From NCBI GenBank assembly GCA_003541675.1, contig DPMC01000009.1, positions 1 to 8,845 of the forward strand: a DNA stretch of 8,845 nucleotides, in the 5' to 3' direction. The DNA is from Acidimicrobiaceae bacterium. GTDB lineage: Bacteria; Actinomycetota; Acidimicrobiia; Acidimicrobiales; MedAcidi-G1. The translations under genes and the position numbers were made by a program. Positions within the stretch are counted from its first letter, which is position 1. Each line of letters starts with the position of its first letter. Below are positions 134 through 7,488 of this stretch, one piece after another. The notes below the pieces were generated by a model. The model was given only the letters and a program-made list of their open reading frames with translations. It was not told the origin of the DNA and did no database searches.

Positions 134-334
134 TCAGACCTTGCGGACGTTCAGAGCCTCAGGGCCCTTGCGGCCGGGGCCGACCTCGAATTCGACGGCC
201 TGACCCTCGTCGAGGCTGCGGTAGCCCTCGCCCTCGATGTTGGAGTAGTGAACGAAGACATCTTCTTCACCGGACACGGAGAGGAACCCGTAGCCCTTTT
301 CTGCATTGAAAAACTTCACGGTGCCGTTCGGCAT
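134..334 (-). CDS. Cold-shock protein, CspA family
   Basis: A 66-residue single-domain cold-shock protein, the usual size for the family. These proteins are small cytoplasmic beta-barrels that bind single-stranded RNA/DNA and act as RNA chaperones. The RNP1-like motif KGYGFLSV and RNP2-like motif DVFVHYSNI are both intact, and the protein opens with the typical [16 protein letters not shown] chose the ATG at 334 because homology begins there; a longer frame to 361 adds nine basic, non-family residues. A purine-rich AAAGAAAG lies about 13 nt upstream and is only a moderate ribosome-binding match. The gene follows the cupin gene on the same strand after 132 nt that probably hold its own promoter and a structured leader, common for csp genes. 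A hairpin and a terminator follow it. The family assignment is secure; whether it is cold-induced cannot be told. Confidence 0.97.
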
Positions 335-466
335 ATTCAGGTATCGCTTTCTTTTGAACAAGACCGGGTCGGTTGTCGAACCGGCAGGGGTAAGCGTACG
401 AGTTCCGATATCTAACCGGGCGTTTACTGACCACAGGAAATTTTGGCTGAGTTTTCCGTGTCTTGC
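335..466 (-). promoter_or_regulatory. Leader and probable promoter region of the cold-shock gene
   Basis: These 132 nt separate the cupin stop from the cold-shock start. On the minus strand a possible -10 TTAGAT lies near 410-415, with no convincing -35. That would give a leader of roughly 70-80 nt, in line with the long structured leaders of many csp mRNAs. A short stem, CGGTT/AACCG with a 4-nt loop, lies at 370-383. The promoter call is tentative; the lack of any ORF here is clear. Confidence 0.3.
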
Positions 467-820
467 CTAGGCCTCGCCGACGCCCCGCTGCCCCACGAAG
501 TAGCCGACGCCGTAGTCCTCGGTCGAGAACGTGATTGTGCTGCCCGGAGGGAAGTAGAAGAGGTCACCCTTGGTGGCCGTCACCGACTGGCCGGTGTCGT
601 CGGCAATGGTGATCTCACCATCGACGATCAACTTCATCTCGTGGTACGTGTACGTGTAGGTCATCGACTGGCCTGCCTCAAGGCGATAGCACCCGGCGGT
701 GATCGGCTTGTCGGGGTCCTCGGAGACGGCGAAGTCGTCGAGGAATGCGTTGGCGTCGAACTCGTCCATCGCCGGGAGTTCGCGTCCCTTGATGGATCCC
801 TTGAACTGCATCGCTGCCAT
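467..820 (-). CDS. Cupin-domain protein, EutQ-like
   Basis: A 117-residue protein that is essentially one cupin beta-barrel. Residues 40-112 carry the recognisable core: ITAGCYRLEAGQ, then the YHEMKLIVDGEITI segment, then KGDLFYFPPGSTITF and a final YFVGQR. This order and wording match the EutQ-like/DUF861 cupins. The usual metal-binding histidines are mostly missing: cupin motif 1 shows Y59-H60-E61, and motif 2 has PPGSTI instead of PxGxxH, so a classical metal-dependent oxygenase is unlikely. EutQ is an acetate kinase of the ethanolamine-utilisation system, but no other eut gene is visible, so I assign only the fold. It lies 83 nt downstream of the aldo/keto reductase on the same strand and could share its transcript. 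ATG at 820 gives MAAM; the ATG three codons later is an alternative start. Neither has a strong ribosome-binding site. Confidence 0.85.
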   Translation of the reverse strand: MAAMQFKGSIKGRELPAMDEFDANAFLDDFAVSEDPDKPITAGCYRLEAGQSMTYTYTYHEMKLIVDGEITIADDTGQSVTATKGDLFYFPPGSTITFSTEDYGVGYFVGQRGVGEA

Positions 821-903
821 GGATCGTTGCTCGTTTCATTTGATGGGGTAAGACGAACGGAGATTCTGTCACGTATCGGGGGACGGTCTGCCAGACGAGT
901 TGC

Positions 904-2534: not shown

Positions 2535-2568
2535 ATCCTGTTGGGTGCCCACTCGCAGGCCCCGGGCT

Positions 2569-2574
2569 GGAAGA
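2569..2574 (+). promoter_or_regulatory. Shine-Dalgarno deciding the selenoprotein start
   Basis: GGAAGA lies 8 nt upstream of the GTG at 2583, ideal spacing. The alternative in-frame TTG at 2541 has no comparable purine run, so the GTG start is preferred. Confidence 0.65.
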
Positions 2575-2582
2575 ATCAGTCC

Positions 2583-3641
2583 GTGCCGACGTACACGACC
2601 GAGTTGCCAATTCGTGACGAATTGGATGCTGCGCATGGGGAGGCCATGGCCGAATGGTCCAGTGCGGGAACGTGGTGGACCGGAGCGCAACGACTCGCCA
2701 TGGTTGCCGAAGTACGCCGGGCCCGAGACGCCGACACGCTCGCCCCGTGGGAGTCGCCGTCAGCGGTCGATGGGCTGATTCCGGATGGCCATCCGCTGCC
2801 CGACGCTGTGGTCGACCTGGTGTGGCGGCTCACCAACCACCCAGGAACCCTGACCCCCGAGTGGCATGCCTCAATCCTCGGCCGAGGTGTGGAGGCACTG
2901 GCCTACGTCGAGGTGGTGTCGATCGTGGCTCAGGTGAACTGCGTCGACCGGTTCGCCGACGCCCTGGAACTGGATCGTGTACCGGTACCGGAGGCGCAGC
3001 CCGGAGAACCCGACGGGCAGGTGCCCGCCGACGCCGAGGTACGCCTGCACTGGGTACCGACAGTCGACATAGGAGGACCGAACGTCTGGCTGGCGCTCAG
3101 CGGCGTACCTTCGGAACTGGAGGCCAGGTCACGGCTCTCGACGCCTCACTACCTGGAGGGTCGGGCGGTATTCGGCGATGTGGTCTCGGACCGGTTCTCG
3201 CTGCAGCGGGTCCAGATGGAATTGGTCGCCGCCCGCACGTCGAAACTGAACGAATGCTTCTACTGAACGACCAGTCACGCGTTGTTGCTCGGTCTGAGCG
3301 GCCTCCACCAGGACAATGAGGTGACCCTTGAAGCCATCGGCGGCTCGGGGAACGGTGATGGCGGAGTTCGACACGGCGATCTGCTCGTCCGATTGACCGA
3401 AGCCATGTGGGAAGGAGAGCCGGGGCCCCTGGCAGCGGTACGTGACGAACTCTTGGCGGTCGCCGGAGCCGACGTTCTGGTCGATGCCGTGGCGGTGAGC
3501 GCCAACTTCCACATGATGACTCGGGTCGCTGACGGCACAGGTACGCCGTTGGACCCCGACACCGATGCTGCCTCTGTGGATTTCCGCAACGAGATCGAGG
3601 TGAACGACCTCGTGTCACGACGCCATGTCCTGGCGTCCTGA
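2583..3641 (+). CDS. Selenocysteine-containing AhpD-like (carboxymuconolactone decarboxylase family) protein
   Basis: Read through an in-frame TGA at 3264-3266, this is one 352-residue protein with Sec at residue 228. The C-terminal part has the AhpD active site, E213-x11-C225-F-Y-U228-T-T-S-H232. The spacing equals that of mycobacterial AhpD (E118, C130, C133, H137), so Sec replaces the peroxidatic cysteine and C225 is the resolving cysteine. Homology-like sequence continues after the TGA: SHALLLGLSG, then AVAVSANFHMMTRVADGTGTPLD near residues 302-324. Residues 1-140 are helical and family-like (TWWTGAQRLAMVAEVRRA; ALAYVEVVSIVAQVN) but lack a CxxC pair, suggesting a degenerate duplicated half. 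The likely role is peroxide or organic hydroperoxide reduction, or another thiol/selenol redox reaction; substrate is unknown. Stopping at the TGA would give an inactive 227-residue product without U228 and H232. A SECIS-like hairpin follows the TGA. A TGC-to-TGA mutation or base-call error is the main alternative. Confidence 0.88.
2607..2625 (+). repeat. 19-bp dyad CCAATTCGTGACGAATTGG in the first codons of the selenoprotein gene
   Basis: Nine-base arms are perfectly complementary around one central G. As RNA it folds into an 8-bp hairpin with a UGA loop that is not in the reading frame. It starts 24 nt after the GTG start. It could be an operator for a dimeric regulator or an mRNA hairpin affecting translation. 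It encodes codons 9-15, so chance cannot be excluded. Confidence 0.5.
3264..3266 (+). other. In-frame TGA recoded as selenocysteine (Sec228)
   Basis: The TGA falls at the fourth position of C-F-Y-x in E-x11-C-x2-C-x3-H, where AhpD relatives have cysteine. The frame is open on both sides: 227 codons before and 124 after, both with family features. Seven other genes here, and this gene itself, end in TGA, so the code is not generally reassigned. Sec insertion would need SelB, tRNA-Sec and selenophosphate synthetase, none of which is encoded in this window. Confidence 0.85.
3284..3302 (+). promoter_or_regulatory. Bacterial SECIS element candidate
   Basis: GUUGCUC and GAGCGGC pair over seven positions (five Watson-Crick, two G-U), leaving the apical loop GGUCU at 3291-3295. 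The first loop G comes 24 nt after the UGA, inside the 16-37 nt range accepted for bacterial SECIS elements, and both first loop bases are G as the bacterial consensus requires. GGUCU is also the loop core of the E. coli fdhF SECIS, where G and U contact SelB. The element lies inside the coding sequence and encodes part of LLLGLSG. Confidence 0.8.
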
Positions 3642-3660: not shown

Positions 3661-4527
3661 TCAGGCGCCTAGTGCCTGTCGGATCCGGGCGATGTGGTTG
3701 GGTCCGATCTCACAACATCCGCCAACCACATCTACGCCCATCTCCACCCACGAGAGCACCATCGCGGTGTAAGGATCGGCACCCATGTCGGTCCGGGCGG
3801 AGGGAAGGGGGCTTCCATCACGGCCCCGCCAGCCCAGCGGCATGTCGCAAAACGCGTTGGCGTAGACACCCAACGGCCGATCGGTGGCGTCACGAAGTAC
3901 CGGAAGGGCCTCGGTTATCTGTTCAGGTGGACAACAGTTCAGAAGGTAGAGGTCAGCCTGGATCTCGCTACAGGCCCGGTCGAAGGATGTGCCATCCAGC
4001 AGGTGGGGGCCGGTCCCGCCTTGAAGGGTGAACGAGGTCCACACCTCTTTCCCACTGATTCGTGCGGCATCGGTGGCGGCCCGAGCCTCGTGGAGGGCAC
4101 CCATGGTCTCACAGAGGAAGATGTCGACGTGTTCGTTGAGCTGGTCGACCATGACGGTGTACTCACCCAGCAGTTCCTCGTAGGTGGCCTCCGGTGTGGG
4201 GTTGTAGCTGTGGCGGAGTGGCGGCAGTGAACCGGCGACTCGGACGGAACGCTCCGATGTATCGGCGGCTTCCCGGGCAAGGCGGCCGGCGGCCCGGCAC
4301 AGCTCATCAGACCGTCCACCCAGACCATGAGGCTCCAGCCTGTTGGCGAACGTCGAGTAACTGTTGGTAGTCAGTACGTCACAGCCCGCAGCTACATAAT
4401 CGGCGTGTACGCCTCGAACAAGATCCGGATCCTCGATCAGTGCCCAGGCTGACCAGAACTCGGCTGAGCGGGGTGACCCACGCCGAATCAACTCCTGGCC
4501 CATACCCCCGTCCAGCAGCGTCGTCAT
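3661..4527 (-). CDS. Homocysteine S-methyltransferase family protein
   Basis: A 288-residue zinc-dependent methyltransferase domain of the Hcy-binding type, close to the length of MmuM/BHMT-like single-domain enzymes. These transfer a methyl group, for example from S-methylmethionine or betaine, to homocysteine to make methionine. The N-terminal LLDGGMGQELIRRG is the classic opening, followed by AGCDVLTTNSYSTF. The three zinc cysteines are visible, counted from this start: C198 in LLNCCPPE, and C271 and C272 in VGGCCEIGPNHI. The ATG at 4527 is chosen because GGAGG lies 5 nt upstream and homology starts immediately; a frame opening at 4566 would place that GGAGG inside the coding region. The gene converges on the selenoprotein gene with only 19 nt between stops, and diverges from the transporter gene. 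The methyl donor cannot be determined; selenohomocysteine or other selenols are possible substrates only by analogy. Confidence 0.93.
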   Translation of the reverse strand: MTTLLDGGMGQELIRRGSPRSAEFWSAWALIEDPDLVRGVHADYVAAGCDVLTTNSYSTFANRLEPHGLGGRSDELCRAAGRLAREAADTSERSVRVAGSLPPLRHSYNPTPEATYEELLGEYTVMVDQLNEHVDIFLCETMGALHEARAATDAARISGKEVWTSFTLQGGTGPHLLDGTSFDRACSEIQADLYLLNCCPPEQITEALPVLRDATDRPLGVYANAFCDMPLGWRGRDGSPLPSARTDMGADPYTAMVLSWVEMGVDVVGGCCEIGPNHIARIRQALGA

Positions 4528-4642
4528 CGGGTCCTCCGGGAGGCGGTGTGTCTGATCGAGAAACACTAGGTGTCTGTGGACAAGGGGCCTATTGTCCAGC
4601 GATGTTCAGCCCGGTGATGTCGAGCATGGAGAGAGTCTTCTG
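4528..4642. promoter_or_regulatory. Divergent promoter region, methyltransferase and transporter
   Basis: These 115 nt separate the divergent methyltransferase and transporter starts and must hold their promoters. They contain two small dyads: ACAC-TAG-GTGT (4563-4573) and the TGGACAA/TTGTCCA pair (4577-4598). TATTGT at 4590-4595 could be a plus-strand -10, inside the second dyad, but no good -35 is seen. Confidence 0.4.
4577..4598. repeat. Operator-like inverted repeat TGGACAA-N8-TTGTCCA
   Basis: Seven-base arms are perfectly complementary with an 8-nt spacer, a 22-bp dyad of the size bound by dimeric helix-turn-helix repressors. It overlaps a possible -10 for the transporter gene. No regulator gene is adjacent, so the binding protein is unknown. 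Confidence 0.45.
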
Positions 4643-5495: not shown

Positions 5496-6428
5496 ATGAG
5501 TGACTTTGAGACTGACGGGCACACCGGCAGCCCAGAAACCGGCGGAGCGCCGGTCCTGTACGAAGAACGAGATGACCTGGCGATCATCACGTTGAACCGC
5601 CCGGATAAGAAAAACGCGTTGACCGATGCGGTGATCGAGGGCATCGCCGACGGGATTGATGCGGCGACGAAATCCCCTGACGTGGTAGCCGTGGTGCTTC
5701 GGGGCTCGGGCGGCACTCTGACCGCTGGCTACGACCTGACGGCCGGGACGGGAGTGGGTACGTCGTCGGGAGACGAGGAGGGATGGTCCACGCCCTACGG
5801 GGCGAAGGGCCCCGAACCACGGCAAGGCGCCTGGGATCCGGTCCGCGACTACCAGTTCATGAATAACAACGTCCGGCGGTTCATGAAGGTATGGGAGTGC
5901 CCGAAGCCGGTAATCGGAGAGATCCGGGGTTGGGCGATCGGTGGCGCCACTGACCTAATCCTGTGCGCGGATCTGTTGTACATGGCATCCGACGCCCACA
6001 TCGGGTACGCCCCCAGCCGGATTTTCGGCACTCCAACCACCATGCTCTGGGTGTACCGACTTGGCCTCGAACATGCCAAGCAGTTCCTTCTGACCGGTCG
6101 GGCCATCGACGCCGAGACGGCCCATCGAATCGGTCTGGTGTCTCAGGTCTATGGGCCCGACGAACTCTCGGCGGAGGCTGAGGCCGAGGCCCGGCGATTC
6201 CGTCACATTCCGGCCAATCAGTTGGCGCTGAACAAACTGCTCGTCAATCAGGCCTACGAGAACATGGGGCTTCGAACCTCCCAGATGCTGGGCACGTTCT
6301 TCGACGGGGTGACCCGTCACACCGAGGAGGCCTACCGGTGGGCCGAATCATTCGACGACAAGGGCTTTCGCGAGGTCATCAGGGAACGCGACGCACCGTG
6401 GAAGGACTACGGCGAGAGCCCCCAATGA
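5496..6428 (+). CDS. Crotonase-fold (enoyl-CoA hydratase/isomerase family) protein
   Basis: A 310-residue crotonase-superfamily protein, a little longer than the usual 260-290. These enzymes act on acyl-CoA thioesters. Visible signatures are ITLNRPDKKNALTDAV (residues 31-46), the first oxyanion segment TLTAGYDL (74-81) and the second, IRGWAIGGATDLILCADL (143-160). The two catalytic glutamates of classical enoyl-CoA hydratase are absent: the GGGCEL position reads GGATDL (Asp153), and the PE position reads GTPTTMLWVYRLG (Thr181). This PTTxxWVYRLG subtype is common in actinobacteria and may not be a hydratase at all. A 25-40 residue insertion (about 82-120) follows the first oxyanion segment. 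GAGG lies 9 nt before the ATG. It likely shares a transcript with the transporter upstream. Confidence 0.9.
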   Translation: MSDFETDGHTGSPETGGAPVLYEERDDLAIITLNRPDKKNALTDAVIEGIADGIDAATKSPDVVAVVLRGSGGTLTAGYDLTAGTGVGTSSGDEEGWSTPYGAKGPEPRQGAWDPVRDYQFMNNNVRRFMKVWECPKPVIGEIRGWAIGGATDLILCADLLYMASDAHIGYAPSRIFGTPTTMLWVYRLGLEHAKQFLLTGRAIDAETAHRIGLVSQVYGPDELSAEAEAEARRFRHIPANQLALNKLLVNQAYENMGLRTSQMLGTFFDGVTRHTEEAYRWAESFDDKGFREVIRERDAPWKDYGESPQ

Positions 6429-6678
6429 GCAGAGTCAGATGGATCCGAAATGGGCCGCCAACACGGCCGGGTGCAACGATTCCCTAGGCTGAAGTCACTG
6501 GCGGATGGCTGAGGAGCCGCCGCTGGACACGGTCTTCCCACCGTGCGATCGGCCCCCACTTCGGTGGGGGCCGTCTCGCGTCCCGGATAAGCCAAGTAGG
6601 GCTCCGTGTGTCAAGTCCGTCAGCTGTGTTGCTACCACGCTCATTTCGAAAGCTGTCGTGTGAGGCGTGTTGTAATCG
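6429..6678. other. Convergent intergenic region with a hairpin cluster
   Basis: No credible gene is seen in these 250 nt. They hold three consecutive hairpins at 6500-6521 (GGCGG/CCGCC), 6528-6545 (CACGGT/ACCGTG) and 6550-6573, plus a looser stem at 6636-6669 (CACGC-TCA / TGAGGCGTG with one bulge) close to the DUF6159 stop. The arrangement suits termination between convergent genes. Confidence 0.5.
6550..6573. terminator. Strong GC hairpin with UUCG loop, probable bidirectional terminator
   Basis: CGGCCCCCAC and GTGGGGGCCG pair over ten bases around a TTCG tetraloop. It stands between the convergent crotonase and DUF6159 genes, 121 nt past one stop and 105 nt past the other. No long U tract flanks it on either strand, so termination is inferred from position and stability. 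Confidence 0.6.
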
Positions 6679-7488
6679 TCAGCGAGTGGCAAACGCCTCG
6701 GTCAGGCCTGCGCCCTGGAAGCCGTCCGGAATCGAACCGGTCGTGGCGTAGAGGTAGAGCGCGGTCTGGAAAACAGCTCCGAGAGCGGTCAGCACGACGA
6801 CGACCAACGCCACCCAGGGCACGGCGATTACCAGACCGACGGGGCCGGCCAGGAACACCACGAGGATCGCCGGGATCATGGCAGCCAGTCCCAAGAGGCC
6901 GAACCCGATCTGGGAAGCGAGATTCTCTCCCCACGTGCGCTTGAGTAGCGACGCTGAGGCCTTAAGGCCACTGACCGCACGGTGATCATCGACCACGATG
7001 GCTGGGATGACGAGGAACGAAGCTGCCTCCCAGGCCATACCGATCATGCTGACGGCGAACTGACCGAGTCGACCCGAGCGTTCCTTGAGTGCTGAGAGGA
7101 CGAGGCCAACGGTGGCCGTGAGGAGCGCCCACGGCAGCAGGCCGCCGAGATGGGAAAAGGCCCGGCTCAGCGCCGACTTCACGGTGGGGTCGCCACCCGA
7201 GAGCCGTTCGTGGGCTCCGGCCACCAGGGCGCCCTTGAAGAACACCCCGACCACGCTGAGGATCAGGGCGCTAGCGATACCGGCGAACACCAGCACCGGG
7301 TCGACCTGCCCTTCCTCTGACGAGAGGCCGGAGAGATCAGTCGCGGCGAGAGTCGGAAGCCAGAGCACGAGGAGCGCCCCGACGGACACCAGGAAGGAGA
7401 ACACCGGGAGTACAAGCAGCTCCCGATCCTTCCGTAGTACCTGCCACGACACCTTGGCCAACGTGATCGTTCTCGAGATGCGTCCCAT
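6679..7488 (-). CDS. DUF6159-like integral membrane protein
   Basis: A 269-residue membrane protein of unknown function with about six hydrophobic segments, near residues 26-48, 65-88, 115-135, 145-167, 190-212 and 214-240. Conserved-looking points match the DUF6159 type: a short basic N-terminus followed by SWQVLRKDRELLVLPVFSF, a central MAWEAASFLVIPAIVVDD, then SASLLKRTWGENL, and the end ALYLYATTGSIPDGF. No catalytic motif or signal peptide is visible. The gene converges on the crotonase gene. It follows the decarboxylase on the same strand after 112 nt, with no clear Shine-Dalgarno before the ATG. The family assignment is from memory of the motif pattern, and the function is not known. Confidence 0.8.
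   Translation of the reverse strand: MGRISRTITLAKVSWQVLRKDRELLVLPVFSFLVSVGALLVLWLPTLAATDLSGLSSEEGQVDPVLVFAGIASALILSVVGVFFKGALVAGAHERLSGGDPTVKSALSRAFSHLGGLLPWALLTATVGLVLSALKERSGRLGQFAVSMIGMAWEAASFLVIPAIVVDDHRAVSGLKASASLLKRTWGENLASQIGFGLLGLAAMIPAILVVFLAGPVGLVIAVPWVALVVVVLTALGAVFQTALYLYATTGSIPDGFQGAGLTEAFATR

Follow-up and report, generated by a model that had tools for sequence, protein, structure and literature searches.

An in-frame UGA in an actinobacterial gene of the NF041238 selenoprotein family and the predicted sestrin-like, two-domain AhpD architecture of its product

An 8,845-nucleotide stretch of DNA from an Acidimicrobiaceae bacterium (hereafter, the window) contains a gene interrupted by a TGA codon, which raises the question whether this codon is a stop, a lesion, or a selenocysteine (Sec) codon, and what kind of protein would result from reading through it. 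With the TGA read through, the frame extends from position 2583 to 3641 on the forward strand and encodes 352 residues followed by a TGA stop (3639-3641), with a single internal TGA at codon 228 (3264-3266), as stated in the first-pass annotation of this DNA, which took the codon to be Sec. The gene starts with GTG, a position at which relatives likewise carry a start codon; an alternative start, TTG, lies 14 codons upstream, at 2541. Translation with table 11 splits the gene into two ORFs, 2541-3266 and 3282-3641. The upstream neighbor (1839-2534, same strand) encodes a glyoxalase-like protein, and the downstream neighbor (3661-4566, reverse strand), which converges on the gene, encodes a homocysteine S-methyltransferase. 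Comparison of 29 loci showed that the gene neighbors are shared among close relatives only, the widest cluster, with the homocysteine S-methyltransferase, being found in 8 loci.

The read-through protein belongs to the NCBIfam family NF041238, "alkylhydroperoxidase-related (seleno)protein" (AhpD_rel_CFYUT), scoring 335.8 bits where 175 are required. Its residues 10-343 align to positions 1-355 of the 357 in the profile, so that family sequence lies on both sides of the TGA in the same frame and in one profile match, as the first-pass annotation had noticed. The CFYUT motif of the family is present as NECFYUTTSH, with the TGA at the U. In Pfam, only a weak CMD match was found (16.4 bits, below the cut-off of 23). 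The family itself is known: the relevant passage of a 2026 review lists NF041238 as "AhpD-related protein (hypothetical protein 1, Sargasso Sea metagenome)" with a CxxU motif (PMC13188914), and the passage of the 2005 Sargasso Sea study on hypothetical protein 1 reports four sequences, suggests a redox function and shows a predicted SECIS (PMC1088965), in agreement with the first-pass annotation, according to which AhpD-like selenoproteins had been reported in marine metagenome surveys. Given the full-length match, the CFYUT motif, the UGA at the CxxU position and nothing essential that differs, the window gene is an ordinary further member of a known selenoprotein family rather than a new selenoprotein.

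Conservation of the TGA was assessed in several overlapping sets of sequences (27, 80, 81 and 26), the counts of which are not additive. Searching the genome of the window and 60 relatives yielded 28 family-length matches in 26 genomes, each with exactly one TGA; a fragment in genome G007, scoring 58 bits and lying at the edge of a contig, was not counted as family. Of these matches, 27 were read and aligned (G060:C146 was left out, and L105, a copy of L014, was dropped before alignment), and the TGA occupies the motif codon in all 27 codon-aligned sequences, the window's own and 26 others. From 117 related loci in titled genome records, the best 80 were retained, and the same holds for all 80 of them; among their titles are Acidimicrobiales, Gammaproteobacteria, Pseudomonadales, Alphaproteobacteria, Binatia, Deltaproteobacteria and Acidobacteria. 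One search pattern behind these 117 loci contains the motif itself, and the class-wide search is the fairer count: of the 395 genomes covered, 75 had a match, and of the 81 matches in all, 80 contain one TGA and one has no stop. The codon was read in the DNA of 35 of these matches (34 TGA, 8 + 26, and one TGC), and the other 46 were assessed by stop count only; the TGA is at the motif in all 26 further loci of this set. A search of the phylum gave five matches in 4 of 396 genomes, with one TGA each; phage records gave no match. A Cys-type gene in which the TGA arose by a sequencing error or as a pseudogene lesion could be suspected from the draft state of the assembly and from the existence of Cys forms (the single TGC, and apparently some counted in the table row of the 2005 study), but is hardly credible against a TGA at the same codon in 27/27, 80/80 and 26/26 loci.

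The region downstream of the TGA evolves as coding sequence. Upstream of the TGA, the median dN/dS is 0.44 (127 pairs), and downstream it is 0.53 (136 pairs), both below 1 (in each case, pairs were kept from 351 by a pS of 0.05-0.65), which implies that the part 3' of the TGA is maintained as protein. This bears on the reading in which the UGA is a true stop, yielding a 227-residue protein, with the downstream part a separate or dead frame. Among 152 database proteins (120 listed of 188 matches and 120 listed of 216), 150 stop at C-x-Y directly 5' of the TGA (149 by pattern, whereas P0152 ends in ECFY; of the remaining two, P0023 is only a partial record, and P0106 has a different end), and the ORF from 3282 could restart translation. 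However, gene callers cut at every UGA by rule, so that the split expected under standard annotation is what the databases contain; purifying selection acts on the downstream frame; truncation at the UGA takes away U228 and H232, which are invariant in 47 sequences; and the codons directly after the TGA are frozen (see below). We regard termination at this UGA as very improbable.

Among the database proteins, P0123 and P0124 are ORFs that start just 3' of the UGA position and consist of the C-terminal domain followed by an alpha/beta-hydrolase. For P0123 and the N-terminal piece P0094, the longest contig is 48781 in both cases, and this agreement makes a Sec-AhpD/hydrolase fusion likely. P0131 and other 359-residue matches carry about 130 extra N-terminal residues ahead of the family portion and also end in NECFY (7 examined).

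Downstream of the UGA, RNAalifold applied to 27 sequences predicted one SECIS-like hairpin (3284-3302, forward strand), with a 7-pair stem, GUUGCUC/GAGCGGC, and a GGUCU loop at 3291-3295. The loop begins 24 nt after the UGA, and the hairpin, with a G in its small apical loop, thus agrees with the distance of 16-37 nt given for bacterial SECIS elements in the relevant passage of PMC10778597. The second loop base, G at 3292, is invariant in the 27 sequences. We take the loop letters to resemble those of Escherichia coli fdhF. Synonymous change is halved at the hairpin: mean pS is 0.69 upstream of the TGA and 0.65-0.75 along the gene in 12-codon windows, with the exception of codons 0 to +11 from the TGA (0.41) and codons +6 to +17 (0.32). 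The codons from Leu236 (CTC) to Ser239 (AGC), at 3288-3299, are frozen throughout the family. Leu236 is encoded by CTC in all 80 sequences with Leu at this position (81 compared), unlike the conserved Leu72, Leu268 and Leu323, which use six codons (2.17-2.20 bits, 81 sequences), and Ser239 is encoded by AGC in 70 of 78 sequences and by AGT in 8. Residues 236, 239 and 235 have the lowest codon entropy among 13 conserved six-codon residues.

The sole exception to the TGA (L213, G650:C4, about 6180-7118, reverse strand) reads TGC, in RCFYCTLGH, and in this Cys form the hairpin codons are lost: Leu236 is encoded by CTG, and Ala replaces Ser239. The respective genome has selA. An RNA signal is best supported by the frozen codons and their loss in the one member found that can do without Sec, although this control is a single case. 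Covariation contributes nothing, with 0 compensatory changes in 27 sequences over 7 or 6 pairs and no separation from shuffle controls, and the case for the hairpin accordingly rests on the frozen codons. Pairing is kept in 95.2% of cells, and sliding the partner lowers this to 24-60%, although such a comparison is biased toward a structure derived from the same sequences. The window's own 48 nt are not unusually stable (z = +1.04, 171 of 200 shuffles at least as good), and their minimum-energy fold contains the inner four stem pairs only; Rfam gave 0 matches in the window at the gathering threshold. For the SECIS near the UGA, which the first-pass annotation had proposed to look for, the candidate is a hairpin under strong synonymous constraint, with neither covariation nor unusual stability.

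Cys forms were also sought by other routes. A search with residues 229-352 for full-length Cys forms gave two matches among 3641 candidates, both C-terminal pieces that continue into an alpha/beta-hydrolase, and a profile search (7994 candidates scored) gave none above 64% query coverage among the 120 of 216 matches listed. Nevertheless, Cys forms of NF041238 may be more common than the single one found here, given the row for hypothetical protein 1 in the table of the 2005 study, 4, 7, 0, 5 (PMC1088965), of which we take the 7 and the 5 to be Cys homologs, the column heads standing outside the passage. Outside the family, the solved AhpD-type proteins 6k40 and 2pfx align a Cys with the UGA, as had been expected of AhpD relatives; homologs align through the TGA, and residue 228 is matched by TGA in relatives and by one TGC.

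The machinery for Sec insertion was found in part in the genome of the window, a draft of 306 contigs that is 66.3% complete. selA is on contig C297 (398 bits), and selB is on C203, with 239.8 bits against a cut-off of 242.25 and without the first 21 profile positions. Positions 2-27 of the selB profile match the end of the selA contig (C297:5-82), and the ends of C297 and C203 have 24 identical bases in common; given the start of selB on the selA contig and these shared bases, the two genes are most likely neighbors split by the assembly. In the same 66% complete assembly, selD had no match and tRNA-Sec was not found: all seven RF01852 matches are below the cut-off, and ARAGORN assigned these places to tRNA-Gly, Ser, Leu, Ser, Cys, Met and Asp. 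The expectation of selA, selB, selD and tRNA-Sec in the source genome thus held for selA and the contig-split selB. The lack of tRNA-Sec, named beforehand as an observation against Sec, is literally the case in this assembly, but tRNA-Sec is present in 14 of 15 genomes of the same genus, as is selD, and in five of five loci checked, ARAGORN reported tRNA-SeC with the anticodon TCA. Among 61 genomes, selA is present in 26 of 26 that encode the NF041238 family, and the family occurs in none of 13 that lack selA (Fisher p = 0.00028, relatedness ignored).

A recoded genome, in which UGA would generally specify an amino acid, would also account for read-through in the 2583-3641 gene, yet the gene itself ends in TGA, as do 21 of the 27 aligned sequences, and selA and selB are present; this reading is exceedingly improbable. 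The pseudogene, the recoded genome and the true stop were all rejected, on the conserved TGA, the TGA terminators and the purifying selection downstream, respectively. Reading of the UGA as Sec, proposed in the first-pass annotation, is supported by the conserved TGA, the frozen hairpin codons and the presence of selA and selB.

Two further genes in these genomes have in-frame TGA codons. The selD genes of relatives (for example, L099, L101 and L102) carry a single TGA in 39 of the 48 genomes with a selD match, and SelD of these relatives is probably itself a selenoprotein. In the window's own genome, a second CXXU gene (L103, G000:C3, about 265-843, forward strand; DCHYUTVHH) encodes a peroxidase-related protein (TIGR01926, 151 bits). 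Its active site contains one TGA, and another TGA just upstream may precede the start.

The predicted structure of the read-through protein (pLDDT 92) consists of two AhpD-fold domains in tandem. The N-terminal domain (residues 1-152, 2583-3038) yields AhpD-fold matches when modeled alone (pLDDT 94.7), and its helix region contains no CXXC or Cys pair. The C-terminal domain (residues 165-340, 3075-3602), identified by PDB sequence matches, the structure model and fold matches, carries the CXXU motif. HHalign aligned the two halves in register, weakly (probability 15%). E213 (3219-3221), C225 (3255-3257), U228 (3264-3266) and H232 (3276-3278) all belong to the C-terminal domain and are invariant in 47 sequences (alignment A3, 47 of the 48 chosen, without L173, whose gene runs to the contig end; L162 and L182 were left out as well from A4 and A5, 45 each). 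By analogy with AhpD, these residues (3219-3278) would form a Glu, CXXU, His catalytic set, present together with the predicted AhpD fold. In the wider family, an N-terminal CXXC is kept in 47 of 81 sequences (members in L111-L190) and has been lost in the window's clade.

Among PDB sequence matches, AhpD and peroxidase-related proteins rank first (6k40, E = 6e-15), and these proteins (6k40, 2pfx, 2oyo, 3c1l, TIGR01926) share with the C-terminal domain both the fold and the E-C-x-x-C/U-H set. Whereas the solved representatives are single-domain proteins with Cys, the window protein has Sec and an extra N-terminal AhpD-fold domain. The earlier description as an AhpD-like enzyme holds for the fold and the catalytic set, with the correction that a fusion of two AhpD domains, rather than a plain AhpD, is predicted. 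With Foldseek, neither the whole-protein nor the N-domain model had a PDB match at E <= 0.001; the best whole-length structural match is sestrin2, and sestrin chains are absent among the matches listed for the N-domain alone. Sestrin2 (5t0n, 5dj4, 5cuf) is 6% identical to the window protein, and both have two AhpD-fold domains per chain, the window protein by prediction. In sestrin2, as described in a passage of PMC4674687, the N-terminal domain holds the redox Cys and GATOR2 is bound by the C-terminal domain, whereas the CXXU of the window protein is C-terminal. DDYDY, the C-terminal hinge of sestrins according to passages of PMC4674687 and PMC11429811, is absent from the sequence of the window protein, which is sestrin-like in architecture and not a sestrin. 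Bacterial fused AhpD dimers have been described in Corynebacterium ureicelerivorans and Comamonas aquatica, with two AhpD-like domains and cysteines in the C-terminal one only (PMC11429811); these have Cys where the window protein has Sec, and the section of the sestrin review devoted to them does not mention selenium (PMC11429811).

Taken as a whole, we consider it probable that the in-frame UGA, very likely read as Sec, gives rise to a predicted two-domain AhpD-fold enzyme whose CXXU would reduce organic hydroperoxides. SelB with Sec-tRNA would recognize the hairpin 24 nt after the UGA and insert Sec228. By analogy with AhpD and sestrin2, the Sec228 selenolate would attack the peroxide, with E213 and H232 as a proton relay; Cys225 would resolve the oxidized Sec by forming a selenenylsulfide, to be reduced in turn by a cellular thiol system. 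The N-terminal half, as a second AhpD-fold domain without a Cys pair, would make a single chain resemble an AhpD dimer, as is the case in sestrins, and probably helps to maintain the fold and the substrate pocket. Sestrin2 reduces cumene hydroperoxide via Cys125, Tyr127 and His132 (in a passage of PMC4674687). The AhpD fold hosts other activities, too: the debrominase Bmp8 has the same fold (structural match). A Sec enzyme of the same fold acting on a substrate other than a hydroperoxide, such as a dehalogenase or an enzyme of a lactone-related step or of protein-disulfide exchange, is conceivable but not likely, given the top rank of AhpD and peroxidase-related proteins among the PDB sequence matches and the retained E-C-U-H set.

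Returning to the hydroperoxide-reducing selenoenzyme, a more speculative extension, to which we give little weight, is that the family is a selenium counterpart of the sestrins: a fused AhpD pseudo-dimer in which Sec would be locked in by the frozen hairpin codons, selenium chemistry would be confined to the C-terminal domain, and the N-terminal domain, without a Cys pair in the window's clade, would have turned to ligand sensing or regulation like the inactive sestrin domain. The passages of the 2026 review and the 2005 study on NF041238 do not mention a two-domain, sestrin-like fold, and the link of this selenoprotein family to the fused-dimer fold seems to be unreported in the literature searched; this fold and the rarity of Cys forms seem to be what is new here. 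The description of NF041238, so far AhpD-related or hypothetical, can be extended by a prediction: two fused domains arranged as in sestrins, of which the working one contains selenium. In the databases, 150 of 152 entries examined are cut at the UGA and so lack most of the catalytic domain. The rarity of Cys forms, of which we found one, makes the family a good test of why some lineages retain selenium.
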